Assembly: GCF_003063355.1 (NCBI RefSeq)
Contig: NZ_NESH01000006.1
Span: 186,001 to 250,000, forward strand
DNA length: 64,000 bases
DNA from: Limnohabitans sp. Bal53
GTDB taxonomy: Bacteria > Pseudomonadota > Gammaproteobacteria > Burkholderiales > Burkholderiaceae_C
Reading direction: 5' to 3'
The first letter of the stretch is position 1, and each line of letters begins with the position of its first letter. The notes under the pieces were generated by a model. That model was not told where the DNA came from. It saw only the letters and a program-made list of their open reading frames with translations, and did not search any database. Both the position numbers and the translations under genes were made by a program. Below are positions 23,626 through 45,496 of the stretch, piece after piece.

Positions 23626-24633
23626 TCAGGCCAGAACGGCTTGGGCTACTGCTAAATAAACCGGGATGCCCAGCACGATGTTCAGCGGAAAGGTCAGTCC
23701 CAGGCTGAGCCCGAAATACAGCGCGGGTTTGGCTTCGGGCAAGGCGGTGCGCAGCACGGCGGGCACGGCGATGTAGGACGCGCTGGCGGCAAGCACCATG
23801 AGCAAGGCCCCGTCGCCTGCGTTGAGGTTCAAGACATACGCCAGACCCAAGGCCAGGCCCGCGTGCACCAAGGGGCCAATCACCGCATAAGCGATCAGCA
23901 CGGGCGACTGGCCTTTGACTTGCGGCAGGTTGCGCGACGCCATCAAGCCCATGTCGAGCAGGAAGAAGGCCAGCATGCCTTTGAACAGGTCCACCGAAAA
24001 GGGCGCCATCGCTTCTTGACCTGCTTCGCCCGTGACCAGGCCGATGACCATGGCCCCCAAGAGCAGCAATTGCGCACCATCGGTGAAGGACTCGTGCAGG
24101 ATCTTGCCCACCGACGCGCCATGGGGTGCGGCAGGCCCACCCAGTGCGGCCGCACCGCCCGCTTGCAGCACCAAGCCCGAGGCCTGCTTTTGCCGCAATG
24201 AATTGGCCAACACCACCGCCAAGATGATGGCGGGCGACTCCATCAAGGCCATGGCCGCCGCCATGTGTCCGCCGTAGGGCACGCCCTGGTTTTCCAGCGT
24301 CTGCACCGCCGTGACAAACGTCACCGCACTCACCGAGCCATACGTGGCGGCCACGGCGGCTGCGTCAAAACCTGAAACAAAGCGCCGCAGCACGGTGTAA
24401 CCGATGAGCGGGATAACGATGGCCAGCAATACCGCAGCAGCCAAGCTGATGCCCACGCTGGCCGTCAGGCCAGATTGCGACAGCGCAAAGCCACCTTTGA
24501 GGCCCAAGGCCATCAGCAGGTAAAGGGACAAGAAGCGGGAGATGGCGGGCGGAATTTCGAGGTTGGATTTGACGGTGCCCGCCAGCACGCCGAAGATGAA
24601 AAAGAGAATGGCCGGGTCGATCAGATTTTGCAT
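23626..24633 (-). CDS. SbtA-family sodium-dependent bicarbonate permease
   Basis: Inner-membrane permease of 335 residues with about ten hydrophobic segments and the family start MQNLIDPAILFFIFGVLAG. It also shows the SVSAVTFVTA and GHMAAAMALMESPAI stretches known from cyanobacterial SbtA. SbtA imports HCO3- with Na+; here it may feed anaplerotic carboxylases. AAGGAA lies 7 bp before the ATG at 24633; an ATG 24 bp upstream is less well placed. It is divergent from a LysR regulator, as in known inorganic-carbon uptake loci. Confidence 0.85.
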   Translation of the reverse strand: MQNLIDPAILFFIFGVLAGTVKSNLEIPPAISRFLSLYLLMALGLKGGFALSQSGLTASVGISLAAAVLLAIVIPLIGYTVLRRFVSGFDAAAVAATYGSVSAVTFVTAVQTLENQGVPYGGHMAAAMALMESPAIILAVVLANSLRQKQASGLVLQAGGAAALGGPAAPHGASVGKILHESFTDGAQLLLLGAMVIGLVTGEAGQEAMAPFSVDLFKGMLAFFLLDMGLMASRNLPQVKGQSPVLIAYAVIGPLVHAGLALGLAYVLNLNAGDGALLMVLAASASYIAVPAVLRTALPEAKPALYFGLSLGLTFPLNIVLGIPVYLAVAQAVLA

Positions 24634-24657
24634 GAGGGTGTTCCTTGCGCCGATCAT

Positions 24658-24690
24658 AGAAATCGACGGGCCACTTGTAAAATCGATTCT
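24658..24690. promoter_or_regulatory. Candidate LysR operator between the bicarbonate permease and its regulator
   Basis: An inverted repeat AGAAATCGA (24658-24666) and TCGATTCT (24683-24690) with a 16-bp spacer lies in the 84-bp divergent intergenic region. The right arm forms part of the 8-bp palindrome AATCGATT (24681-24688). The position fits a LysR recognition site controlling both genes. The assignment is inference from symmetry and location. Confidence 0.4.
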
Positions 24691-24717
24691 TCGACCTTTG
24701 AATATAGATAAAATCCT

Positions 24718-25614
24718 ATGAATGTCAGCTTCCGCCAATTGCGCTTGTTTTTGGCTTTGGCCGAAACTGGCAGCGTGAGCGCTGCGGCCAAGGTGATGCA
24801 CGTCACCCAGCCCACGGCTTCGATGCAGCTCAAGGACATCAGCGAATCCGTGGGTTTGCCGCTGTACGAGTTGGTGGGCAAAAAGCTCTACCTGACTGAG
24901 GTGGGTCAAGAGCTGGCGCAAACCGCCCGTGCCGTGGCCCAGACTTGGGACGCGTTTGAGCAAAACGTGGACGCCGCCAAGGGCTTGTCGCGTGGCAAGC
25001 TGCGGGTGGCGGTGGTGAGCACCGCGAAGTACTTCATGCCGCACCTGATTGGCAGCTTTTGCAAGCGGCATCCAGCCATCGACGTGTCGCTCGAAATCCT
25101 GAACCGCGACGGCGTGGTGCAGCGCCTGCAGGGCAACCTCGATGACCTCTACATCATGTCCATGCCGCCCAAAGACATGGACTTGGGCGACGAGGCCTTC
25201 ATGCCCAACCCCATCGTGGTGATCGCGCCCACGTCCGACCCGCTGGCCAAACGCAGCGCCGTGCCTTTGCACGAGTTGGCGCAGCGCCGCTTCATCTTGC
25301 GTGAGAAGGGCTCAGGCACACGCATGGCCGCTGACCAGTTTTTCCGGTCCATGAAGTTTCGACCTGATGTGCGGCTGGAGCTGGGCAGCAACGAGGCGAT
25401 CAAGGAGTCCGTGGCCGGAGGCTTGGGCGTGGGCCTGGTCTCGCGCCATGCCTTGCATGGCCACCAGAAAGAAAACGGTGTGAGCGTGATCGACGTGGCT
25501 GGCTTTCCCCTGCCCTCGGCCTGGCACATCGTCTACCCAGCGGGCAAAAAATTGTCACCGCTGGCGCTGGCCTTCAAGCAGCATGTGCTCAAGCAGATCA
25601 GTCGGCGCAAATGA
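24718..25614 (+). CDS. LysR-family regulator, CbbR/CmpR-like
   Basis: DNA-binding regulator of 298 residues: N-terminal winged helix-turn-helix (FRQLRLFLALAETGSVSAAAKVMHVTQPTASMQLKDI) and a periplasmic-binding-like effector domain from residue 90. The wording (LREKGSGTRMAADQFF, ELGSNEAIKESVAGGLGVGLVS) is close to CbbR and CmpR, which sense carbon metabolites. Together with the divergent SbtA-type gene this suggests control of bicarbonate uptake. No RuBisCO or carbon-fixation genes are in the window. It converges with the photolyase gene, 10 bp apart. Confidence 0.9.
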   Translation: MNVSFRQLRLFLALAETGSVSAAAKVMHVTQPTASMQLKDISESVGLPLYELVGKKLYLTEVGQELAQTARAVAQTWDAFEQNVDAAKGLSRGKLRVAVVSTAKYFMPHLIGSFCKRHPAIDVSLEILNRDGVVQRLQGNLDDLYIMSMPPKDMDLGDEAFMPNPIVVIAPTSDPLAKRSAVPLHELAQRRFILREKGSGTRMAADQFFRSMKFRPDVRLELGSNEAIKESVAGGLGVGLVSRHALHGHQKENGVSVIDVAGFPLPSAWHIVYPAGKKLSPLALAFKQHVLKQISRRK

Positions 25615-25624
25615 CGCAGGCTTC

Positions 25625-27163
25625 TTAGACGCTGTCCAGCCCCGCCCTGGTTGCATGGGCTTGCTGCCCGATCTGCGCCTTGTCCTCGGCGCTCATCTTG
25701 CCCACATGCTTGACCATGAGCGCGGTGCGCGGGTTGCCGGAAAAGTCGCTCTCGTGGCGGATCAAAAAATCCCAGTACAGCGTGGTCATGGGGCAAGCAC
25801 TGGGGCCGGTGCGCACCTCGGGTTGGTAGCGGCAGCCTTTGCAGTAGTTGCTCATGCGGCTGATGTACTGGCCGCTGGCCACATAGGGCTTGCTGGTGAA
25901 GCGCCCGCCGTTGGCGTGCAGGGCCATGCCCAAGGTGTTGGGCGTTTCCACCCATTCCACCGCGTCGACATACATGGCGCGGTACCAGGCGCTCACTTGT
26001 TGGGGTGACAGGCCCGCCAGCACCGCAAACTGCCCGGTGACCATGAGCCGCTGGATGTGGTGCGCGTAGCTGTGTTGCAGTGTTTGGCCAATGGTGGCCT
26101 GCATGCAGGCCATGTGAGTGTCGCCCGTCCAGTACCACTTGGGCAAATCGCGGGTGTGGCCGTAGTGGTTGGCCTCGGCCATTTGTGGCATGTCTTGCCA
26201 GTACACACCACGAATGAACTCGCGCCAGCCCAGCACTTGCCGAATAAAGCCCTCGACACTCGCCAGGGGCAAGCCGCGTGCGTGGTAAGCCTGCTCGGCC
26301 GCCAGGATCACCTCGCGCGGGTTGAGCAAATGCAAATTCAGGCTGCTGCCCACCAGCGCGTGCCAGCCGAAAGGCAGCGTGGTCCACATGGCGTCTTGCC
26401 AAGCGCCAAAGTTTTCAAGCCGCTGGTCGATGAAATGCTGCAAAGCCACCAGCGCGTCTTCGCGGGTGACGGGCCAGGCAAAGTGGTCCAGCGTCCCCGG
26501 GTGATGGGCAAAGCGTGTTTGCACCAATGTGATCACGTCTTGTGTGACGCGGTCAGGTGCAAAGCGGGCGGGCGGGGGCACGGTGCCCGGACCTTTGGCG
26601 CCAAAGCCTTTGCGGTTTTCAGCGTCGTAGTTCCATTGGCCGCCGATCGGCTCTTTGCCTTCCATCAGGATGCCGTGGCGTTTGCGCATCTCGCGGTAAA
26701 AGAACTCCATGCGCAGCTCTTTTTTGTCGCCCGCCCATTTGGCAAACTCAGCTCGGCTGCACAAAAAGTGCGTATCGCCCACCCAGCGCAGCAGCACCTG
26801 GGCCTGCGCTGCAGCGTCTTCGATGAGCCGTTCCATGCGCCATGCCCCAGCTTCCATTGCCACCAGCGCTTGGGGGCGATGCTCTTGCAGTGCGCGGGCC
26901 AAGCGACCGGAAAAGTCAAAAGGCAAGGCCTGGTCGTCGACCTTCATATAGGTGAAGGGCATCTTGCGGCGGTGCGCTTCATTGGCGAAGTGCCGCATGC
27001 CCGACAGGAAAATGGCAATTCGCGCTTTGTGGTTCCAGACTTCGTCGGCTTCGCTGTCGGCCTCGATCATCAACAGACGGTCTTGGGCCGGGTCAAAGTC
27101 AGCCAAGGCCGGGTTGTCCCAGCCCAGCTGGTCGCCCAAAACCAAAATCAGGTGGCGTGTCAT
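25625..27163 (-). CDS. Iron-sulphur photolyase (PhrB / FeS-BCP type, cryptochrome/photolyase-related)
   Basis: Flavoprotein of 512 residues in the bacterial cryptochrome / (6-4) photolyase group. It begins MTRHLILVLGDQL and has the C-terminal FAD domain with LGWREFIRGVYW, HHIQRLMVTGQF and EWVETPNTLGMA. Near the C-terminus NYCKGCRYQPEVRTGPSACPM supplies three of the four cysteines expected for the 4Fe-4S cluster; an upstream Cys (HMACMQATIG) could be the fourth. The start at 27163 follows the DUF2256 stop by 2 bp. Role: light-driven repair of UV photoproducts. The divergent cluster next to it also suggests a light or singlet-oxygen response. Confidence 0.92.
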   Translation of the reverse strand: MTRHLILVLGDQLGWDNPALADFDPAQDRLLMIEADSEADEVWNHKARIAIFLSGMRHFANEAHRRKMPFTYMKVDDQALPFDFSGRLARALQEHRPQALVAMEAGAWRMERLIEDAAAQAQVLLRWVGDTHFLCSRAEFAKWAGDKKELRMEFFYREMRKRHGILMEGKEPIGGQWNYDAENRKGFGAKGPGTVPPPARFAPDRVTQDVITLVQTRFAHHPGTLDHFAWPVTREDALVALQHFIDQRLENFGAWQDAMWTTLPFGWHALVGSSLNLHLLNPREVILAAEQAYHARGLPLASVEGFIRQVLGWREFIRGVYWQDMPQMAEANHYGHTRDLPKWYWTGDTHMACMQATIGQTLQHSYAHHIQRLMVTGQFAVLAGLSPQQVSAWYRAMYVDAVEWVETPNTLGMALHANGGRFTSKPYVASGQYISRMSNYCKGCRYQPEVRTGPSACPMTTLYWDFLIRHESDFSGNPRTALMVKHVGKMSAEDKAQIGQQAHATRAGLDSV

Positions 27164-27165
27164 GT

Positions 27166-27345
27166 TCAACCCCGGGTGCCGATGGGGCTTTTGGCCTTGT
27201 CGGCCCGGCAGCGGTCGCTGCAATAGAGCACGTTGTCCCAGTTTTTGGCCCAGCTTTTGCGCCAGGTCATGGCTCTGCCACAAACCGTGCAAGGTTTCTG
27301 GGGCAAATCCTGTTTGTTCCCTTTAAAACCCGAGGTTTTGGGCAT
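27166..27345 (-). CDS. DUF2256 small zinc-finger-like protein
   Basis: A 59-residue protein with the DUF2256 pattern: LPQKPCTVCGRAMTWRKSW, then NWDNVLYCSDRCRADK. Four cysteines in two CxxC-type pairs suggest a zinc site. DUF2256 genes are often found beside photolyase-related genes, as here (2-bp gap). The ATG at 27345 has GGAG 6 bp upstream; an ATG and a TTG further upstream are in frame but poorly spaced. Function unknown. Confidence 0.85.
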   Translation of the reverse strand: MPKTSGFKGNKQDLPQKPCTVCGRAMTWRKSWAKNWDNVLYCSDRCRADKAKSPIGTRG

Positions 27346-27432
27346 GTGCATCTCCAATGAAAAGGGGCTGGCGTGACAATGTGGTTAAACGAGTTTAAAC
27401 TGATCAGTCACAAAATGAATTTTGAAGTGCAA
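27346..27432. promoter_or_regulatory. Divergent promoter region of the photolyase and gpx operons with a palindromic cluster
   Basis: The 87-bp space between DUF2256 and the glutathione peroxidase gene is AT-rich. It holds TTAAAC-GA-GTTTAA (27385-27398), the overlapping palindrome GTTTAAAC (27393-27400) and TGATCA (27401-27406). TGATC-type -35 boxes are known for the sigmaE/ChrR singlet-oxygen regulon, but I see no convincing matching -10 box in either direction. The symmetry suggests a regulator site that controls both operons. Confidence 0.4.
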
Positions 27433-28038
27433 ATGAACCACTCATGGGTAAAACAATGGGGTCCGAGCCTGCTTTTGGCCGTGGTAGCTGCCGTGCTGGG
27501 CTTGGGGCTTGAAGCTGCGCAAGCCAGCCCGCAAAAGGCCGGCAATGTGGTGGCCTGCCCTGCCATCCTGAACCACACGGTTGAGCGGTTGCAGGACGAA
27601 AAGCCTCAGTCGCTGTGCCAATATGCAGGCAAAGTGGTGCTGGTGGTCAACACCGCCAGTTTTTGCGGTTTCACCTCCCAGTACAAGGGCCTTGAAAACC
27701 TGAACACCCAATACAAAGACCAAGGTTTGGTGGTGCTTGGCTTTCCTTCGAATGACTTTTCACAAGAAAAAGGCAGCAACAAAGAAATAGCAGCCTTTTG
27801 CGAAAGCACCTTCGGTGTGAAGTTCCCGATGTTCACCAAAACCCAAGTCACGGGCAATGGCGCGTCCCCTTTGTTCAAACAGCTGACCGCACAAACCGGC
27901 CAAAAACCCCGCTGGAATTTTCACAAATACCTGATCGGCCGCGACGGCAAAGTCATTGACCAATACAGCAGCATGACCGGACCCGAAAGCAAAACCCTGT
28001 TGTCGGCCATCGACAAAGCCCTGAAGGCCCAGCCATGA
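27433..28038 (+). CDS. Glutathione peroxidase family protein, exported
   Basis: Thiol peroxidase of 201 residues with a signal peptide (LLLAVVAAVLGLGLEAAQA) and the catalytic motif VVNTASFCGFT (Cys78, not selenocysteine). LGFPSNDFSQEKGSN contains the catalytic Gln, and WNFHKYLIGRDGK contains the Trp and Asn. It reduces peroxides, here apparently in the periplasm. The ATG at 27433 starts the signal sequence directly; in-frame upstream codons are possible. It heads an eight-gene chain of overlapping genes, which fits protection of lipids against photo-oxidation. Confidence 0.9.
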   Translation: MNHSWVKQWGPSLLLAVVAAVLGLGLEAAQASPQKAGNVVACPAILNHTVERLQDEKPQSLCQYAGKVVLVVNTASFCGFTSQYKGLENLNTQYKDQGLVVLGFPSNDFSQEKGSNKEIAAFCESTFGVKFPMFTKTQVTGNGASPLFKQLTAQTGQKPRWNFHKYLIGRDGKVIDQYSSMTGPESKTLLSAIDKALKAQP

Positions 28039-29378
28039 GCACCACGATGAAGCCGCGCATGAAACTGGCCATCGTCGGCTCGGGCATTTCGGGCCTGGCC
28101 GTGGCCCACACCTTGAAAGACCATGCCGACATCACTGTCTTCGAGGCGGGCGACTATTTTGGCGGTCACACCCACACGGTGGACGTGACCCTGCCCACGC
28201 CGCAAGGCATGGTCACGCACGGCGTGGACACCGGCTTTTTGGTGTTCAACGAACGCACTTACCCGAACCTGATCAACCTGTTTGCCGAGCTTCAGGTGGA
28301 GACCGCGCCGTCCGACATGTCGTTTTCAGTGAAGGTGCCGGGCGCTCTGAACGGCAAAACGCTGGAGTGGAGCGGCACCGACTTGAACAGCGTGTTCGCG
28401 CAGCGCAGCAATTTGGTCAACCCACGCTTTTGGCGCATGTTGGCCGATGTGATGCGCTTTAACGCCCTGTGCACCCGCATCGCCAAAGAGCAGCGCGAAA
28501 AAGAGCTGCAACAGCCCCTGTCAGACTTTTTGCGCACGCACAAGTTCAGCGAGCCATTTCGCGATTGGTATTTCTTGCCCATGCTGGGCTGCATCTGGAG
28601 TTGCCCGACCGATCAGATGCTGCAGTTCCCGGTGGCGACCATGATCCGGTTTTGCCACAACCATGGCTTGATCCAGGTGACGAATCGACCACAGTGGTTC
28701 AGCGTGGTCGGCGGCGCCCGAAACTATGTCGAGAAAATTCTGACGGGTGTGCACGACAAACGCCTGAACTCCCCGGTGCGCTTGATCGAGCGCGATGCAC
28801 AAGGCGTGCGTGTCATCACCGACGGGCATGCCGAGCGCTTTGACCAGGTGGTCATCGCCACCCACACCGACCAAGCTCTGGGAATGCTGCGCGAGCCCAG
28901 CACTTATGAGCGCAGCTTGCTGGGGGCCATTCGCTACCAAGACAACCGCGCCGTGCTGCACACCGATGCCAGCGTTCTGCCCGCCAACCCCAAGACCTGG
29001 GCCGCGTGGAATTACGAACGCGCCGCCAGCAGCGAGCGCGAGTCCTCGCGCGTGTGCCTGCACTACCTGCTCAACCGTTTGCAACGCATCCCGTTTGCGC
29101 AGCCCGTGGTGGTCTCGCTCAACCCCTTGCACGAGATCGATCCGGCCACCATCGTGGGCGAGTACGACTATGCCCACCCGGTGTTTGATCTGGCTGCCAT
29201 TGAGGCGCAAAAGCGTTTGCCTTTGCTGCAAGGCCAACAGCACACCTGGTATGCCGGCGCCTGGACGGGTTATGGCTTCCACGAAGACGGCTTGAAATCG
29301 GGCCTGCAAGTGGGCCGCGCTTTGCTCAAACTGATCCATGAACAGGCCAGCCCAGTTCAGGACAGACTGGCCGCATGA
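28035..29378 (+). CDS. FAD-dependent amine-oxidase-like flavoprotein
   Basis: Flavoprotein of 447 residues with the FAD dinucleotide motif LAIVGSGISGLAVAHTL and the following FEAGDYFGGHTHTV. It has an amine-oxidase-type body and the C-terminal FAD contact TWYAGAWTGYGFHEDGLKSG. Proteins of this type sit beside DUF1365 and a CFA-synthase-like gene in many proteobacteria. In Rhodobacter sphaeroides and Pseudomonas putida, as I recall, such neighbours are induced by singlet oxygen or light and take part in fatty-acid modification. It overlaps gpx and DUF1365 by ATGA at each end. Confidence 0.9.
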   Translation: MSTTMKPRMKLAIVGSGISGLAVAHTLKDHADITVFEAGDYFGGHTHTVDVTLPTPQGMVTHGVDTGFLVFNERTYPNLINLFAELQVETAPSDMSFSVKVPGALNGKTLEWSGTDLNSVFAQRSNLVNPRFWRMLADVMRFNALCTRIAKEQREKELQQPLSDFLRTHKFSEPFRDWYFLPMLGCIWSCPTDQMLQFPVATMIRFCHNHGLIQVTNRPQWFSVVGGARNYVEKILTGVHDKRLNSPVRLIERDAQGVRVITDGHAERFDQVVIATHTDQALGMLREPSTYERSLLGAIRYQDNRAVLHTDASVLPANPKTWAAWNYERAASSERESSRVCLHYLLNRLQRIPFAQPVVVSLNPLHEIDPATIVGEYDYAHPVFDLAAIEAQKRLPLLQGQQHTWYAGAWTGYGFHEDGLKSGLQVGRALLKLIHEQASPVQDRLAA

Positions 29379-30292
29379 CACCCACCCCGGTCCATGCCCA
29401 CACCGCCCTGATCGGTTGGGGCCAGGTGCGCCACACGCGCCACCGCCCGGCGCACCATGCTTTCGCCTACCCGACCGCGTTTTTGATGCTGCCGATGCGC
29501 AGTGTGCAGGCCTTGCAAGTGAACCAGGGGGAGGGATCGCCGCGCTTCGCTCGCGATGACGAAGGGGGTGGGGTGACAGCGCCCTATTCAAATCCCGTCA
29601 CTGCGCGTGCAGCGCGGCAGTCCATGCCGAAGGTGTCTGGCCCTCCGGCGTTGGCACTGGCCATCAACCGCCGCGCCTGGTTCGCATTCCACGATGCCGA
29701 CCATGGCGACGGCCGCAGCGCCGAGCGGGGTGGCGCGTTGGCCTGGCTGGACGAGCTGCTGCAGCGTGAGGGCATCCAGGACGCCACGGGCGAGGTCTGG
29801 CTGCAGGCATTCCCGCGTGTGTTGGGCCATGCTTTCAAGCCCGTGAGTTTTTGGTACGCGCACCACGCCGACGGCAGCTTGGCCGCCATCGTGGCGGAGG
29901 TGAACAACACCTTTGGCGAACGCCACTGCTACCTGTTGCCCGAGCCGCAATACGGCCAAACCATGCTGGCCCACAAGGTGTTCCATGTCTCGCCCTTTTG
30001 TGATGTGCAAGGCGAGTACCGCTTTCGATTCATGCGCACACAGCACAACGGGCAAGACCGCATCGTGGCGCGAGTGGACCATGGCGACGCCGATGGCCCT
30101 TTGATCGACACCAGTTGGAGCGGCGTGCTGGAGCCCGCAACGGCAGCCGCGCTGCGCCGCGTGATGTGGCGCTTTCCGCTGCTGACCTTGGGTGTGGTGG
30201 CCCGCATCCACTGGCATGCCCTCTTGCTGTGGCTGAAAAAAGTACCGTTTTGGCGCAAGCCCGAACCGCCCCGCGATTTTGTGACCCGATGA
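29375..30292 (+). CDS. DUF1365 family protein with an in-frame repeat insertion
   Basis: Protein of 305 residues with the DUF1365 layout: QVRHTRHRPAHHAFAYPTAFLMLP at the start, then INRRAWFAFHDADHGDGR, LQAFPRVLGHAFKPVSFWY and KVFHVSPFCDVQGEYRFRF. Family function is not established; it accompanies the FAD protein and the CFA-like methyltransferase. Between LMLPMRSVQALQ and LALAINRR there are about 40 extra residues (about 50-87) that are low-complexity and match no part of the family. They are encoded by a palindromic repeat element. The reading frame is kept, so the protein may still fold, with the insert as a loop. Confidence 0.88.
   Translation: MTPTPVHAHTALIGWGQVRHTRHRPAHHAFAYPTAFLMLPMRSVQALQVNQGEGSPRFARDDEGGGVTAPYSNPVTARAARQSMPKVSGPPALALAINRRAWFAFHDADHGDGRSAERGGALAWLDELLQREGIQDATGEVWLQAFPRVLGHAFKPVSFWYAHHADGSLAAIVAEVNNTFGERHCYLLPEPQYGQTMLAHKVFHVSPFCDVQGEYRFRFMRTQHNGQDRIVARVDHGDADGPLIDTSWSGVLEPATAAALRRVMWRFPLLTLGVVARIHWHALLLWLKKVPFWRKPEPPRDFVTR
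29534..29626. repeat. Palindromic short interspersed repeat, copy A, inside DUF1365
   Basis: Two modules lie about 33 bp apart. The first (29534-29561) runs GGATCGCC-GCGCTTCGCTCG-CGATGACG. The second (about 29596-29626) begins CGTCACTGCG and ends GCAGTCCATG. The same modules occur in copy B at 59365-59418, joined in the other order, with nearly identical bases. Each module is itself a hairpin. Elements of this kind are dispersed in Comamonadaceae genomes; an origin as a mobile palindromic unit is inference. Confidence 0.75.
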
Positions 30293-31563
30293 ACACTGGA
30301 CCCCACCGGATGCCGACCTCGATGAAGACTGCAGACCACACCCAAGCCTTGGGTAACCGCGCCACCACCATTGCGCACGCCAGCTTGCCCAAAGCCGCTG
30401 CACGCTTGCTGAGCTTGTTGACGCGCCTGAAAATTGGAACACTGACGGTGCACGCGCCCGATGGCAACCTGCAGGTCTTTGGCACACACGAGGCCCCGTT
30501 TGCGGCTTTGCACATCCACCGCTGGGACATGTGTGCCGAGGTGCTGAAATCGGGTGACATCGGTTTTGCTGAGGGCTACATGGCCGGCGACTGGACCACG
30601 CCCGATTTGGCCGCTCTGCTGCGCTTGACCATTGCCAACCGGGACCACATTGAAAGCGCGATCTATGGCCACTGGCTGGGGCGTTTGTTTTACCGCGTCA
30701 AGCACTTGCTCAACCGCAACAACCGCAGCAACAGCCGCAAGAACATCCACGCGCACTATGACCTGGGCAATGCTTTTTACGAGCTGTGGCTGGACGGCAC
30801 GATGAACTATTCGTCGGCCTGGTTTGAGGGCGACCACACCAAAGACATGGCCGAAGCCCAAAAGGCCAAGGTGCGCCGAGCCTTGCGCATGGTGAACGCC
30901 CAGCCGGGTGACCGCGTGCTGGAGATCGGCTGCGGCTGGGGTGCTTTGGCCGAGGCCGCTACCACCGAGTTTGGTGCGCGCATCACGGGCGTGACTTTGT
31001 CGACCGAGCAGCTGGCCTTTGCCAATGCCCGCATGCAATCGCACGGCGTGCAGCAAAGCGCCGACTTGCGCTTGCAAGACTACCGGGACATCGACGACGG
31101 CCCTTACGACGCGGTTTGCTCGATCGAGATGATCGAGGCGGTGGGGCAAGAATATTGGCCCATTTACTTCCAGACCATCAGCCGCATGCTCAAGCCCGGT
31201 GGCCGTGCCTGCGTGCAAAGCATCACGATCGACGACCGCTTTTTTGAGCGCTACTTGCAATCGACAGATTTCATCCAGCAGTACATCTTTCCAGGCGGCT
31301 GCTTGCCCAGCCCCAGCGAATTTCGCAAGCAAGCGCAAGCGGCCGGGCTGCAGGTGGTGGACGAGCTGAACTTCGGCCCTGATTACGCCGAGACCCTGCG
31401 CCGCTGGCGCGAGGCCTTCATGGCGCAACTCGACACCGTACGGACCCTGAAATTTGATGACCGTTTCATTCGCCTGTGGTCGTTTTATCTGGCGTACTGC
31501 GAAGCGGCTTTTGACGAGGCCAACATCGACGTGATCCAGTTCACTTTGGTTAAACCCGCTTGA
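30289..31563 (+). CDS. Cyclopropane-fatty-acid-synthase-family SAM methyltransferase
   Basis: SAM-dependent methyltransferase of 424 residues acting on unsaturated acyl chains of phospholipids. It shows the N-terminal lipid-binding region (LKSGDIGFAEGYMAGDW) and then NIHAHYDLGNAFYELWLD. The SAM motif VLEIGCGWGALAE lies near residue 210, followed by GVTLSTEQLAFA, SIEMIEAVGQEYW and FIQQYIFPGGCLPS. This is the CFA/UfaM/mycolic-acid type; cyclopropanation and plain methylation cannot be told apart by eye. The ATG overlaps the DUF1365 stop (ATGA). Its place in the photo-oxidative cluster favours a protective lipid modification. Confidence 0.92.
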   Translation: MNTGPHRMPTSMKTADHTQALGNRATTIAHASLPKAAARLLSLLTRLKIGTLTVHAPDGNLQVFGTHEAPFAALHIHRWDMCAEVLKSGDIGFAEGYMAGDWTTPDLAALLRLTIANRDHIESAIYGHWLGRLFYRVKHLLNRNNRSNSRKNIHAHYDLGNAFYELWLDGTMNYSSAWFEGDHTKDMAEAQKAKVRRALRMVNAQPGDRVLEIGCGWGALAEAATTEFGARITGVTLSTEQLAFANARMQSHGVQQSADLRLQDYRDIDDGPYDAVCSIEMIEAVGQEYWPIYFQTISRMLKPGGRACVQSITIDDRFFERYLQSTDFIQQYIFPGGCLPSPSEFRKQAQAAGLQVVDELNFGPDYAETLRRWREAFMAQLDTVRTLKFDDRFIRLWSFYLAYCEAAFDEANIDVIQFTLVKPA

Positions 31564-32183
31564 TGCACATGGAACGCCCGCACCCACCCACCCGCACCCA
31601 CCGCCTGCACCCATGGGGCTTGCAGGTGCTGGGGTGCGCGCTGTTGTGCGGTGCGCTTGCGGGACAAACGTGGGCGCAAAGCACGACCGTGACCAGCCCG
31701 AATGCGGCTTTTTCGCGCCCTGAAATGACGGGCTTGGGCGGCGTGGTGCCGACCGCGCCTGTGCGTTTGCGGGTCTGGGGTTTTGAGGTGTACGACGCCC
31801 GTTTGTGGACCCCTGTAGGTTTTCGACATGGCGCATACACGCAGTTTTCGTTTGCGCTGGAATTGCAGTATTTGCGCAAACTCGAAGGTGCGGCCATTGC
31901 CAGCCGCTCAATCGATGAGATGCGGCGCGTGGGCGCGTTCAGCGAGGCCCAGTCGCAAAGCTGGCTGGCCGCCATGCGCGAGCTGTTTCCCGATGTGCGC
32001 CAAGGCGAGCGCATCACGGGCATCAACCTGCCGGGCGTGGGGGCTGAATTCTGGGTCAATGGCCAACGTGTGGGCGTGGTGAAAGACCCGGCTTTTGCGC
32101 GATTGTTTTTTGGCATCTGGCTTGACGAGCGCACGTCCGAACCCAAAATGCGCGCCCAGTTGCTGCAAGGCTTGCAGCCATGA
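31563..32183 (+). CDS. Chalcone isomerase-like exported protein
   Basis: A 206-residue protein with a signal peptide (LQVLGCALLCGALAGQTWAQS) and the bacterial chalcone-isomerase-like domain: LRVWGFEVYDARLW, ELQYLRKLEGAAIASRSIDEMRR and FFGIWLDERTSEPKMRAQLL. Bacterial members are not shown to be isomerases; some bind fatty acids. The start is the ATG in TGATG at the end of the methyltransferase; an ATG 6 bp later is equally possible. Its stop overlaps the MFS gene. Its location suggests a periplasmic lipid-related role. Confidence 0.85.
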   Translation: MHMERPHPPTRTHRLHPWGLQVLGCALLCGALAGQTWAQSTTVTSPNAAFSRPEMTGLGGVVPTAPVRLRVWGFEVYDARLWTPVGFRHGAYTQFSFALELQYLRKLEGAAIASRSIDEMRRVGAFSEAQSQSWLAAMRELFPDVRQGERITGINLPGVGAEFWVNGQRVGVVKDPAFARLFFGIWLDERTSEPKMRAQLLQGLQP

Positions 32184-33532
32184 ACGACCAGGCCCAGTCA
32201 GCGCCTGCGAACCTGCCGCGCCAGGCCTCGGCCGCTTATGGTTTGCTGGGTTTGCCACTGGCCTTTGTGGCTTTGCCTGTGTATGTGCATTTGCCCAATT
32301 TGTATGCCCAGCAATACGGCGTGACGTTGGCCGCGTTGGGTGCGGTCCTTTTGCTCAGCCGCAGTGTGGATGCGGTGGTGGACCCGTGGCTTGGGCGTTG
32401 GGGCGACAAGCTTTACCGCCACTCATGGCAGGCTGTTTGGGTGGCTGCGGTGTTGTTGGCGTTGGCCGTGGCGCTGGGGTTTGCCGCTTTGTTTTTCCCG
32501 CCCGCAGCGGCCTTGTCGGCCACGGGTTTGCTGGTGTGGGTGGGTTGCGCGCTCACGCTCAGCCACTTGGCCTACAGCGGGCTGGGCATCTTGCACCAGG
32601 CCTGGGCGGCGCGCCAAGGCGGCGGAGGCATTGCGCAAAGTCGTTGGGTCGCTTGGCGCGAGGGCTTTGCCTTGGTGGGGGTGTTGCTGGCGTCTGCTCT
32701 GCCTGCGCTGTGGGGCTGGGGGGCCACGACGGCCTTGCTGGTGCTCATGCTGGGGCTGGGTTTGTTGTCTTGGCGGCGGGTGGCGCGCAGCGCCTCGGCA
32801 TCCAAGCTGGAGGCGGTTCCCGGTCATGCCGTGGGCAGCCTTTGGCAGCCGTGGCAGCATGCGGGCTTTCGTCGCTTGTTGATGGTCTTTATGCTCAACG
32901 GACTGGCCAGCGCCGTGCCTGCTACGCTGGTGCTGTTTTTTGTGCAAGACCTGCTGCAAGCGCCCAAGGCCATGGAGCCGTTGTTTCTGGGTTTGTATTT
33001 CGCCGCCGGGGCGCTGTCGTTTCCGCTCTGGCTCAAGGTGATCGACCGCATCGGTTTGCTGCGCACTTGGGCCACAGGCATGGCTTTGTCGGTGCTGGCT
33101 TTTGTGAGTGTGGTCACGTTGGGCGCGGGCGATACGACGGGCTTTTTGATCGTGTGTGCCCTGTCGGGTATGGCGCTGGGCGCGGACCTCACGGTGCCTG
33201 GCGCCCTGCTCAACCAGCTGATTGACCGCTGTGGCGAGCGGGGCCGCACAGAAGGCGCGTTCATGGGCTGGTGGAATCTGGCCACCAAACTCAATCTGGC
33301 TTTGGCCGCCGTGCTGTCTTTGCCATTGCTCGGCCTGTGGGGTTATGCCCCAGGCCAGCAAGGTGACGATGCCGTGCTGGCGCTGGGCTTGGCTTACGGC
33401 CTGCTGCCTTGTGTGCTCAAGCTCTTGGCCGGACTGGCTTTGTATGCGGGCCTGATGCGTCGCCCCGATTTGATCGCGGGACCTGAATTGGCGCACCCTT
33501 TGGCCCATCCTTCGGCTCACCCTTCGGCATGA
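32180..33532 (+). CDS. MFS transporter of the glycoside-pentoside-hexuronide-like type
   Basis: Twelve-helix inner-membrane carrier of 450 residues. The N-terminal half shows LPLAFVALPVYVHLPNLYAQQYG and the motif SRSVDAVVDPWLGRWGDK, typical of the GPH/MFS_2 group related to MelB and LplT-like carriers. The C-terminus carries a short duplication (HPLAHPSAHPSA). Substrate unknown; among lipid genes, transport of a lipid or lysolipid is a reasonable guess. It overlaps both neighbours by 4 bp (ATGA). Confidence 0.88.
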   Translation: MNDQAQSAPANLPRQASAAYGLLGLPLAFVALPVYVHLPNLYAQQYGVTLAALGAVLLLSRSVDAVVDPWLGRWGDKLYRHSWQAVWVAAVLLALAVALGFAALFFPPAAALSATGLLVWVGCALTLSHLAYSGLGILHQAWAARQGGGGIAQSRWVAWREGFALVGVLLASALPALWGWGATTALLVLMLGLGLLSWRRVARSASASKLEAVPGHAVGSLWQPWQHAGFRRLLMVFMLNGLASAVPATLVLFFVQDLLQAPKAMEPLFLGLYFAAGALSFPLWLKVIDRIGLLRTWATGMALSVLAFVSVVTLGAGDTTGFLIVCALSGMALGADLTVPGALLNQLIDRCGERGRTEGAFMGWWNLATKLNLALAAVLSLPLLGLWGYAPGQQGDDAVLALGLAYGLLPCVLKLLAGLALYAGLMRRPDLIAGPELAHPLAHPSAHPSA

Positions 33533-34161
33533 GCCGCTTTGAACAGACAACACGGGAGCCTTCCATGCAACAACCTCACCCCGCCATGATCCAACGCCGC
33601 ACCGCCCTGAGCCGCTTGGGCGCTTTGTCCGTGGTCGCGGCCACGCCCTTTGTGGCCAGCTGCGCCGGGCCTCAGGTGCAAAACTATGCACAAGAAAAAC
33701 CGCTGCTGGATTTGCGCACCTACTTCACCGGCACCATCGACGCCTGGGGCGTGTTCACCGACCGCAGCGGCCAGGTGGTCAAACGTTTCACCGTGGTGAT
33801 GGACTGCAGCTGGAACGGCGACGAAGGCGTGTTGGACGAGGCCTTTGTTTACTCGGACGGCACGAAGCAGCGCCGCGTCTGGAAGCTCAAAGCCGGACCC
33901 AACGGCACTTACACAGGCCGCGCCGACGATGTGGTGGGCGAGGCCTCGGGCCAAGTCAGTGGCAACGCCTTTCGCTGGGGCTATACCTTGGCTTTGCCGG
34001 TCGATGGCCGGGTTTGGAACGTCGATTTTGACGACTGGATGTACCTGATGGACGACCGCGTCATGCTCAACAAAGCCACCATGAGCAAATGGGGCGTGAA
34101 GCTGGGCGAAGTCACCTTGTCCTTCACACGCCGCACGCCTTTGGCGGCCAAGCCGGGTTGA
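33529..34161 (+). CDS. DUF3833 family lipoprotein
   Basis: A 210-residue protein with an N-terminal signal that has a lipobox (ATPFVASCAG) and the DUF3833 body: LDLRTYFTGTIDAWGVFTDRSGQVVKRF, then DEAFVYSDG and VDFDDWMYLMDDRVMLNKATMSKWGVKLGEV. The family is a lipocalin-like fold of unknown function. The ATG at 33529 overlaps the MFS stop. A second ATG at 33565 has GGGAG upstream and gives a more usual signal-peptide length, so it may be the real start. Part of the same chain of coupled genes. Confidence 0.88.
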   Translation: MSRFEQTTREPSMQQPHPAMIQRRTALSRLGALSVVAATPFVASCAGPQVQNYAQEKPLLDLRTYFTGTIDAWGVFTDRSGQVVKRFTVVMDCSWNGDEGVLDEAFVYSDGTKQRRVWKLKAGPNGTYTGRADDVVGEASGQVSGNAFRWGYTLALPVDGRVWNVDFDDWMYLMDDRVMLNKATMSKWGVKLGEVTLSFTRRTPLAAKPG

Positions 34162-35054
34162 TGCGCATGAATCCTCACTCCTCTGGCGCGGCTGCACTGG
34201 CCACCGAATCGGCCGACATGGCCATGCCCAAAGTTGGCCCACAAACGGCGGCAACCGCCCCGCAGGTGCCAGCCAGAAGCTGGCTGCAATTGAACACGCC
34301 AATGACCGACTGGCAAGGCCGTCGGGTTTGGCTGGTGGGTGCTTCCACCGGCATTGGCCTGGCCTGTGCACAAGCGCTGCGCTCAGCTGGGGCGCAGGTG
34401 GTGGTGTCGGCCCGCAACCCTCAAGGCGTGTTGGACTGGGCCGAGAAGGATTCGGGCGTGCAGTGGCGTGCACTGGATGTGAGCGATGCTTCCCAAGTGC
34501 AGGCCATGACCCGCGATCTGTTGGCCGAAGGCCCACTCGACATGGTCGTGTATGCGGCAGGCTACTACCGTGCCCAACGCGCCACGGCCATGGACATGGA
34601 CGACTTGCTGCAGCATGACAAGGTCAATTACCAAGGTGCTTTGCAGGTGATTCACGCGGTGCTGCCCGGCATGCTGGCGCGAGGCAGTGGTCACATCAGC
34701 CTGCTCAGCAGCGTGGCCGGTTGGCGTGGCCTGCCCAATGGTCTGGCTTACGGCCCAACCAAGGCTGCCCTGACCCACTTGGCCGAGACGCTGTACATCG
34801 ACCTGCAAGACCAAGGCATTGGCGTGAGTGTGGTCAACCCCGGTTTTGTGGCCACCCCGCTCACGGCGCAAAACGAGTTCACCATGCCCGCCCTGATCAG
34901 CCCCGAAGAGGCCGCCCGCCAAATGCTCAAAGGCTGGGCAGCAGGTCAGTTCGACATCCATTTCCCCAAGCGCTTCACGCTTTGGCTCAAACTGCTGCGC
35001 TTGCTGCCTTATCGCCTGTACTTCCCGCTGGTGCGCAAGTTCACGGGGCTCTAA
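34161..35054 (+). CDS. Short-chain dehydrogenase/reductase
   Basis: A 297-residue SDR with an N-terminal extension of about 45 residues. The Rossmann motif GRRVWLVGASTGIGLACAQAL, YAAG, the catalytic Ser in LLSSVAGW and an intact YxxxK in LAYGPTKAAL follow. The C-terminal LWLKLLRLLPYRLYFPLVRK is hydrophobic and basic and could bind the membrane. It starts in a TGATG overlap with DUF3833. Likely an NAD(P)-dependent oxidoreductase of a lipid or carbonyl compound in the cluster. Confidence 0.9.
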   Translation: MRMNPHSSGAAALATESADMAMPKVGPQTAATAPQVPARSWLQLNTPMTDWQGRRVWLVGASTGIGLACAQALRSAGAQVVVSARNPQGVLDWAEKDSGVQWRALDVSDASQVQAMTRDLLAEGPLDMVVYAAGYYRAQRATAMDMDDLLQHDKVNYQGALQVIHAVLPGMLARGSGHISLLSSVAGWRGLPNGLAYGPTKAALTHLAETLYIDLQDQGIGVSVVNPGFVATPLTAQNEFTMPALISPEEAARQMLKGWAAGQFDIHFPKRFTLWLKLLRLLPYRLYFPLVRKFTGL

Positions 35055-35074
35055 GTCTGAATTGAAAGCCGAAC

Positions 35075-35509
35075 ATGGACAAGCGACAAGCCACACAAAA
35101 ACTGGCCACGTTTTTTGAAACCCTGTCACCGCAAAGCGTGACCCAGCTGCACACGGTCTACGACGCACAAGCCCGCTTCAAGGACCCTTTCAACGAGGTG
35201 CAGGGCTTGCCCGAAATCGAGAAGATTTTCCGCCACATGTACGTGGCGCTGGAGCAACCGCACTTTGTGGTGACCGGTCAGGTGGTGGACGGCGCACAGG
35301 CCTTCCTGACTTGGGAGTTTCGCTTCCGCTTCAAGCGCTTTGACACCACCACGCTGCAAGCCGTTCGTGGTGCCAGCCATGTGGTGTTCAACGAGCAGGG
35401 CTTGGTGACAATGCACCGCGATTACTGGGATGCGGCCGAAGAGCTGTACGAAAAACTGCCCGTCGTGGGCGGCGTGATGCGCTGGCTCAAAAAACGCGCC
35501 AACACCTGA
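35075..35509 (+). CDS. NTF2/SnoaL-like protein
   Basis: A 144-residue protein of the NTF2-like fold: N-terminal helix (MDKRQATQKLATFFETL), QARFKDPFNEVQGLPEIEKIFRHMY and HRDYWDAAEELYEKLPVVGGVMRWLKKR. Small cavity proteins like this often follow the SDR in light- or singlet-oxygen-induced clusters. It starts 20 bp after the SDR and ends the operon. No catalytic residue can be named from sequence alone. Confidence 0.85.
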   Translation: MDKRQATQKLATFFETLSPQSVTQLHTVYDAQARFKDPFNEVQGLPEIEKIFRHMYVALEQPHFVVTGQVVDGAQAFLTWEFRFRFKRFDTTTLQAVRGASHVVFNEQGLVTMHRDYWDAAEELYEKLPVVGGVMRWLKKRANT

Positions 35510-45360: not shown

Positions 45361-45383
45361 GCCCCGGCTAAAATCGAGTGCTT

Positions 45384-45476
45384 CCCAAGGAGCGTTGCAG
45401 CCCGCCGCCGTCAAGGCGCAGCAGGTCAGGCTTGGGACCGTTCAATGTCTGAATGATTTTGCACAACGACGCTCAC
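45384..45476 (+). promoter_or_regulatory. S-adenosylhomocysteine (SAH) riboswitch upstream of metH
   Basis: The leader matches the SAH riboswitch plan. P1 is CCCAAG (45384-45389) with CTTGGG (45431-45436). The conserved GAGCG (45390-45394) follows P1, and the TTGCAGCCC / GTCAGGCTTGGG core is present. After a linker, CAACGACGCTC supplies the strand (CGCTC, 45470-45474) that pairs back to GAGCG as the pseudoknot. SAH riboswitches switch genes on when SAH accumulates and occur before ahcY and metH in beta- and gammaproteobacteria. Raising methionine synthase removes homocysteine derived from SAH. Confidence 0.88.
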
Positions 45477-45496
45477 CTGAATGCCCCAAGGTGAGC
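45471..45496 (+). promoter_or_regulatory. Competing hairpin that masks the metH ribosome binding site
   Basis: GCTCACC (45471-45477) and GGTGAGC (45490-45496) form a perfect 7-bp stem. The left arm contains part of the riboswitch pseudoknot strand; the right arm contains AAGGTGAG, a good Shine-Dalgarno 7 nt before GTG 45499. Ligand binding would hold GCTC in the pseudoknot and free the ribosome site. The model is inferred from pairing and not tested. Confidence 0.65.

Follow-up and report, generated by a model that had tools for sequence, protein, structure and literature searches.

What do the eight overlapping genes that join a glutathione peroxidase to lipid-modifying enzymes accomplish in Limnohabitans sp. 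Bal53, and what controls them? The window analysed here, 64,000 nucleotides of contig NZ_NESH01000006.1, carries this cluster at positions 25625-35509. A first-pass annotation had read it as a photo-oxidative stress and lipid-remodelling cluster of a kind induced elsewhere through sigma-E/ChrR or light. We consider it likely that the locus belongs to a family-wide type of operon for furan fatty acid (ufa) synthesis and photo-oxidative defence, and that a TetR-type repressor, not ChrR or LitR, most probably controls it. This reading draws on gene content and order, on residues typical of the protein families, and on which regulators are present or absent as searched; the chemistry, the ligand and the mode of regulation would follow from these. 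The system is of a known kind and its mix of genes is not new. The part worth following is the regulatory swap. The locus is laid out as follows, with signal peptides and the lipobox assigned by reading.

25625-27163, minus strand: FeS-BCP (6-4) photolyase, PhrB/CryB type (DPRP); PF04244; best PDB matches 5kcm and 4dja (PhrB), E about 4e-142
27166-27345, minus strand: DUF2256 small protein, upstream of the photolyase gene; PF10013, 8.5e-21
27373-27401, plus strand: sigma-70-like promoter GTGACA-N17-TAAACT before gpx; the sole promoter-like site in 27250-27500 (0.1 in shuffles)
27398-27411, no strand: candidate TetR-type operator AACTGATCAGTCAC; palindrome ACTGATCAGT at 27399-27408, overlapping the -10 element
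27433-28038, plus strand: gpx, glutathione peroxidase; PF00255, 8.4e-32; signal peptide
28035-29378, plus strand: ufaD, homologue of the FAD acyl-chain desaturase; PF01593, NAD_binding_8
29375-30292, plus strand: ufaO, homologue of the DUF1365 furan-forming oxygenase; PF07103, 3.1e-73
29513-29641, plus strand: 129-base in-frame insert in ufaO (residues 47-89) with dispersed repeat arms
30289-31563, plus strand: ufaM, putative acyl methyltransferase of the CMAS family; PF02353
31563-32183, plus strand: chalcone-isomerase-like (CHI-like) protein; PF16036, 1.8e-10; signal peptide
32180-33532, plus strand: GPH-type MFS carrier; PF13347, 6.6e-36; TIGR00792 below its cut-off
33529-34161, plus strand: DUF3833 lipoprotein, calycin-like beta barrel; PF12915, 7e-70; lipobox VASC
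34161-35054, plus strand: SDR dehydrogenase; PF00106, 3.6e-35
35075-35509, plus strand: NTF2/SnoaL-like protein, final gene of the conserved set; PF12680, 9e-13

In the open reading frame (ORF) coordinates, the eight same-strand genes from gpx to the SDR gene are chained by seven overlaps of 1-4 bases. Five are ATGA overlaps, at gpx/ufaD (28035-28038), ufaD/ufaO (29375-29378), ufaO/ufaM (30289-30292), CHI-like/MFS (32180-32183) and MFS/DUF3833 (33529-33532); TGATG joins ufaM to the CHI-like gene at 31563 and DUF3833 to SDR at 34161, and 20 bases separate the end of SDR from the start of the NTF2-like gene. Pfam assignments are consistent with the stated family for each gene and, together with the ORF coordinates, bear out the eight genes and seven overlaps of the first-pass annotation; the NTF2-like gene at the end and the divergent pair of DUF2256 and FeS-photolyase genes also lie where it had placed them. 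The start of gpx is ambiguous, with ATG 27413 or GTG 27373 also possible, and the CHI-like match to PF16036 is weak yet above cut-off (41.6 bits vs 27). Residues 4-504 of the photolyase align to 4dja (E 4.4e-142), which points to PhrB/CryB homology across the whole chain.

To place this arrangement we compared it with 60 loci of relatives, chosen from 111 DUF1365-positive genomes among the 150 family genomes searched. The choice was non-random, with preference given to high scores and long contigs. A gene counts as present at a hidden Markov model score above 100, and ORF starts are first-start guesses. UfaD, UfaO and UfaM occur in all 60 loci, accompanied by SDR in 47, CHI-like in 46, DUF3833 in 46, MFS in 45 and NTF2 in 44, and 25 have gpx immediately upstream. 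From UfaD to SDR, the seven genes have identical order and strand in 43 of the 60, and 21 of those have gpx upstream. Since the UfaD-to-SDR order is kept in so many relatives, the arrangement goes beyond chance and is no artefact of our reading. Among 80 named loci, a unit of CHI, MFS, DUF3833 and SDR with NTF2 was found in four (L249, L251, L254 and L257), which belong to an Oxalobacteraceae, a Rhodocyclaceae, a Thiobacillus and a Gallionella.

The three genes present in every relative correspond to a characterized pathway, cited here, like the other published systems, from excerpts of the papers. According to PMC7380195, UfaM, UfaD (the FAD protein) and UfaO (the DUF1365 protein) convert cis-vaccenoyl chains to the 9M5 furan acid, RPA2569-2571 of R. 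palustris suffice for furan lipid formation in R. sphaeroides, and the furan acid is lost upon exposure to singlet oxygen. The UfaD-UfaO-UfaM order in the window is that of the R. palustris locus tags RPA2571-2570-2569 (PMC7380195, as excerpted). Two Bradyrhizobium loci (L199 and L210), with the order RpoE-ChrR-UfaD-UfaO-UfaM, encode proteins identical to those of the window at 45% (UfaD), 38-39% (UfaO) and 41-43% (UfaM) of positions, and 17 columns of the UfaO alignment are invariant in 43 sequences, the window's UfaO included. Homologues are said to have been predicted already by Dufour in 2008.

CMAS-family methyltransferases also include cyclopropane fatty acid (Cfa) synthases, and the unit could in principle be a plain cyclopropane operon in which the DUF1365 and FAD proteins serve something else. 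The family match would allow this, and NCBIfam puts Cfa models first, all of them below their cut-offs. We compared the window's protein with three solved Cfa chains (5z9o, 7qos and 6bqc) at a Cys and two His positions, which we take to be the bicarbonate site of Cfa synthases. Where these chains read YSC, SVGMFEHVG and His, the window reads YSSAWF, SIEMIEAVG and VQSIT, so that the Cys, the His of EH and the final His are replaced by Ser, Ala and Gln. The same places were counted in 65 UfaM matches above 250 bits from the 80 named loci, leaving out 34 weaker matches (100-250 bits; second CFA-like genes). The Cys place holds Ser in 53, Ala in 9, Cys in 2 and a gap in 1, and the two His places hold Ala in 64 and His in 1, and Gln in 64 and His in 1, respectively. 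The motif S[IV]EMxEA[VI]G is found in 64 of the 65, the exception being a second copy in L234. With the same departures in 62, 64 and 64 of 65 UfaM matches from other proteobacteria, a cyclopropane operon is very improbable. Because the Cfa Cys and both His are absent and UfaM-type residues present, the window's methyltransferase is, judged by its sequence, a UfaM rather than a Cfa synthase. The ufa homology and the UfaM-type residues, along with bacteriochlorophyll genes elsewhere in the genome (see below), support the photo-oxidative and furan-lipid part of the first-pass annotation.

By homology, then, UfaM would methylate cis-vaccenoyl chains of phospholipids, UfaD would desaturate the methylated chains, and UfaO would close the furan ring with oxygen derived from O2, giving a lipid expected to trap singlet oxygen. 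The exported Gpx would reduce peroxides, and the divergent photolyase would repair DNA.

UfaO itself carries an anomaly that had escaped the first-pass annotation. Residues 47-89, a 43-residue insert, are absent from the UfaO proteins of all 60 relatives and hence unique among 61 sequences. The insert DNA holds repeat arms with 75 matches in the genome, the query itself counted, and one 23-base arm recurs at 59397 of the window with 2 mismatches. The insert could impair the last step of the pathway, which is a point against the furan reading, and the unit might then stop early, with UfaO disabled and a methylated diene as end product. The uniqueness of the insert speaks for such an early stop. 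The frame, however, is kept and all downstream genes are open; moreover, the insert falls after a strand and ahead of the next conserved block, and is modelled as largely disordered, next to a confident barrel. The model has a mean predicted local distance difference test score (pLDDT) of 85.3, with residues ~54-84 largely below 50. A tolerated loop seems likelier than a dead enzyme, and we regard early termination as improbable. A Foldseek search with the UfaO fold gave no match at E < 0.001 in the PDB or among viral models; in VIA-align it resembles the OlmO spirocyclase (Z up to 7.5) and nitrobindin (7.2), a likeness that may reflect a mere common barrel.

The genes beyond the core raise the question of lipid export, which the first-pass annotation had derived from what it took to be an unusual combination of peroxidase, methyltransferase and GPH carrier. 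That combination has counterparts in published singlet-oxygen regulons of R. sphaeroides, R. capsulatus and Shewanella, as far as the excerpts go. PMC7074977 lists a GPH symporter (RSP_1089) and an SDR (RSP_1087) in the R. sphaeroides ufa operon, which makes the GPH carrier an established companion of ufa genes; the same paper describes an operon of gpx and photolyase adjoining rpoE-chrR in R. capsulatus, and in Shewanella a periplasmic gpx is RpoE2-dependent (PMC4336711, in part).

Might modified-lipid export through the GPH carrier, with the DUF3833 and CHI-like proteins, nevertheless be the main job of the unit? The DUF3833 lipoprotein is modelled as a ten-stranded barrel (pLDDT 85.6) that Foldseek relates to BFA1 (E 7e-5) and crustacyanin (E 2e-4) and VIA-align to BFA1 (Z 16.3), a DUF3598 protein (15.1) and nitrobindins (~14; 13-16 overall). 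Since VIA-align ranks a designed transmembrane barrel first (Z 16.7), it is the fold class, and no close relative, that supports the calycin reading; sequence searches up to E 1 found no solved structure related to the CHI-like or the DUF3833 protein. The calycin-like barrel with its lipobox fits the earlier guess of an exported lipid-binding-like protein, the signal peptides and the presence of the carrier in the same predicted transcript point the same way, and the carrier, DUF3833 and CHI-like genes each occur in 45-46 of the 60 relatives. But single deletions of RSP1087, RSP1088 and RSP1089 left the fatty acid profile of R. sphaeroides unchanged, according to the excerpt of PMC7380195, and UfaD-UfaO-UfaM occur without carrier, DUF3833 and CHI-like protein in the ChrR-type loci described below. 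Lipid export by the unit is possible, while export as its main purpose seems a poor bet. In the furan reading, the carrier, DUF3833 and CHI-like proteins probably handle hydrophobic products at the envelope, by binding or moving them.

How is such an operon controlled? Adjacent to the 60 relative loci we found a divergent LitR gene in 27, ChrR in 9, TetR in 5 and none of the three in 19; the window groups with the last. All 27 LitR-type proteins carry the W-x9-EH signature of B12 photoreceptors, and the one scanned against Pfam (from L096) has MerR_1 and both B12-binding domains above cut-off. Within 2 kb of ufaD, TTTGTC-N3-GACAAA with at most 2 mismatches occurs in 26 of the 27 LitR loci, near the spacer in 25 (in L077 it lies outside), and in 2 of the 33 loci without LitR. 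Random stretches from these loci, real sites included, contain it in 180 of 2000 cases. Both this operator and the TetR motif described below were first spotted by eye in these same loci.

The nine ChrR loci (L065-L071, L073 and L074) form a second ufa type in the family. ChrR lies beside UfaD-UfaO-UfaM, with RpoE clustered alongside in eight, and of the conserved set only these three enzymes are present, without CHI, MFS, DUF3833, SDR or gpx. UfaO of L070, of this type, is 36-37% identical to four of five UfaOs of the other type and 32% to the fifth, and 50-56% identical to many alphaproteobacterial UfaOs. The nearest named loci of the ChrR type are in Variovorax, Mitsuaria, Roseateles and Paracidovorax, at 76-80% DNA identity; DNA matches to named loci were confined to this type, save for two other loci that match a Rhodocyclaceae locus over short stretches. 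In the five TetR loci the regulator is upstream on the other strand, and TetR lies within ~3 kb of DUF1365 in 13 of the 111 positive genomes (two listings read together).

The first-pass annotation had reported no rpoE/chrR or B12 photoreceptor gene next to the cluster, and this holds for the whole genome as searched, with the consequence that induction through sigma-E/ChrR or a B12-binding LitR finds no support here. No ChrR scored above cut-off in the assembly (99.96% complete, 28 contigs); TIGR02451, the ChrR model, matched only below cut-off, at positions 106-193 of a tandem cupin. Two Cupin_7 matches were considered and rejected by reading: one is a 184-residue cupin whose neighbour looks like an amino-acid-binding-protein gene, and the other is a tandem cupin with selD-like and HAD-like neighbours. 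The genome has no LitR orthologue, the best match to a LitR profile (39 bits) being a MerR protein without a B12 domain. Upstream of the operon there is no extracytoplasmic function (ECF) sigma promoter of the form TGATC-N18-CGTA, a TGATC at 27401 having no CGTA partner in the spacer; the spacer lacks TGTACA, and TTTGTC-N3-GACAAA with at most 2 mismatches is absent from the 2 kb upstream of ufaD and from 17001-45000 of the window.

Contig C24 of this genome holds matches above cut-off to the TIGR models for BchH, BchM, BchB, BchP, BchO and PpsR, and the bacteriochlorophyll cluster at C24:266001-286000 includes PpsR and a B12-binding gene at C24:276840, which we take to resemble PpaA/AerR. Because of these genes, singlet oxygen from bacteriochlorophyll is an expected hazard; a defence role is then easier to understand, and the lack of the usual sensors harder. 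The nearest tree neighbour outside the genus, L077 (support 0.98), carries LitR, so loss of LitR is the simpler reading; at least 16 changes of LitR on the tree of relatives temper it.

A MerR-type gene of 338 residues at C24:163480 (1468-2484 of locus L063) stands, by reading, beside a coq7-like gene; its C-terminal part has no Pfam domain above cut-off, and it could be a B12-less relative of LitR. Control by light or singlet oxygen might thus have been kept through another sensor, such as this MerR protein, PpsR or an ECF sigma factor. The genome does hold a MerR gene without a B12 domain, PpsR, and three ECF-like sigma genes (by reading, among 10 region-4 matches). Set against this, the upstream region lacks a TGATC and CGTA pair, TGTACA and TTTGTC-N3-GACAAA, and the promoter-like site before gpx, by itself no proof of function, is sigma-70-like. 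We rate this explanation as unlikely, but as the most credible of the alternatives discussed. Among the open-licence papers listed in our searches, we saw no report on regulation of this ufa operon.

The TetR explanation starts from an orthologue of the family's ufa-linked TetR encoded 84 kb from the operon, at C25:128850-129446. It scores 320 bits, against 44 for the next match in the genome, and has a TetR_N domain. Of 10 promoters that lie between TetR and ufa in relatives, 8 contain the core AACTGANNAGT (at most 1 mismatch), often within TGTGAACT-N4-AGTTCACA. The window site AACTGATCAGTCAC scores 15.1 on a matrix built without it, a value reached by ~0.23% of 3000 random 400-base stretches, and the congener L064 has a near-identical site, TTTAGACTGATCAGTCACAA, at its gpx. 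Only two exact AACTGANNAGTYAC sites exist in the genome, one of them at the gpx promoter; the second lies inside a small ORF and is for that reason taken as chance. The candidate palindrome overlaps the gpx -10 element, where a repressor would be expected to bind. In a survey of TetR loci (the best 30 of 83), 14 of the 30 have a site (at most 1 mismatch) at the TetR gene itself.

Several observations weigh against TetR control. The motif was identified after the fact, and the window site falls one base short of the consensus in its right half. The core is upstream of only 6 of 20 TetR genes that lie away from ufa (at most 1 mismatch), and the TetR gene of this genome (L124) has no site of its own. 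L120, although TetR lies nearby, lacks a good site at ufaD, and the LitR locus L098 carries a site similar to the window's. Finally, TetR occurs in 83 of the 150 family genomes, also where LitR is present, and may therefore have other targets. With these points included, we still favour a model in which the usual sensor of light or singlet oxygen is gone and a different repressor may have taken over. TetR would occupy the palindrome at the gpx -10 element until a ligand, perhaps a lipid or an oxidised lipid, releases it.

Relatives appear to possess a further element. In 27 of the 60 loci, an RNA with a 104-position model and a C-rich (CUCCUCCCUCCC) loop is predicted between gpx and ufaD or before ufaD; examples of ~105 nt are L086:11678-11787 and L107:11596-11699 (both minus strand) and L078:8244-8350, with 24 further loci. 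Across the 26 sequences used to build the model, 24 pairs hold in 93% of cells, and 19 of these show double changes as compared with 11 in shuffles, a strong covariation signal. A genome search with stricter filters, scoring 39 candidates per genome, returned one copy each in 71 of 100 family genomes; 7 of 30 returned loci had neither gpx nor ufaD detected within 1.5 kb. Rfam gave no match at gathering score on six of the loci. The RNA is absent from the window, where gpx and ufaD overlap, and from the rest of this genome and its congener.

Taken together, these results suggest, as a tentative proposal to which we give somewhat less than an even chance, that the ufa operon was rewired repeatedly within one family between a B12 light receptor, a singlet-oxygen sigma/anti-sigma pair and a TetR repressor, and that in this phototroph-like genome the light input was lost in favour of a chemical signal, perhaps the cell's own or peroxidised lipid; the RNA of relatives would be an extra layer. 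The part that furan lipids play in defence against singlet oxygen is poorly charted, and the genome studied here, which carries bacteriochlorophyll genes, seems to have dropped its light sensor. The family-wide map yields testable regulators of one operon, LitR with TTTGTC-N3-GACAAA and TetR with TGTGAACT-N4-AGTTCACA. It also shows that gpx, the GPH carrier and the lipocalin-like lipoprotein repeatedly accompany the ufa enzymes; the accessory role of these proteins is now easy to test.

Two neighbouring features were seen in passing. A LysR-like gene (24718-25614) adjoins a membrane transporter resembling SbtA-type bicarbonate carriers (23626-25614; by reading alone). An SAH riboswitch at 45381-45481 (Rfam RF01057, 49.1 bits), ~1.3 kb upstream of a match to a methionine-synthase-like B12 domain, is ordinary.

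Among known systems, again as described in excerpts, the Shewanella RpoE2-ChrR regulon (SO_3374-3386 and pgpD) shares the photolyase, a cfa-like gene and a periplasmic gpx, but in separate operons with ECF promoters (TGATCC..CGTAAT) of which none was found in the window (PMC4336711). The Vibrio cholerae ChrR regulon shares a CFA-like gene, VC1122, induced by blue light through ChrR and sigma-E; its promoter, TGATC-N18-CGTAT, was not found in the window (PMC5241685). In R. capsulatus, the gpx bsaA1 and cryB stand side by side at the rpoE-chrR locus near photosynthesis genes, like gpx and photolyase in the window, whereas homologues of RSP_1087-1091 are reported absent (PMC7074977). The light-controlled cluster of Pseudomonas with class II LitR has a gene set like the window's, with phrB, SDR, FAD oxidoreductase and ufaM; its TGTACA operators and LitR were not found for the window, and the window's relatives have LitR with B12 domains and a different operator (PMC9758184). 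Closest are RSP1087-1091 with UfaM (RSP2144) of R. sphaeroides and RPA2569-2571 of R. palustris, likened here by published description, the identity figures above being those of the Bradyrhizobium loci. UfaD, UfaO, UfaM, the GPH carrier and SDR are shared (PMC7380195, PMC7074977), and RSP1088 (186 residues) may, by its description, correspond to the window's DUF3833. Compared with R. sphaeroides, the window's genome has no ChrR that we could find, and its operon takes in ufaM and adds gpx, the CHI-like gene and NTF2.

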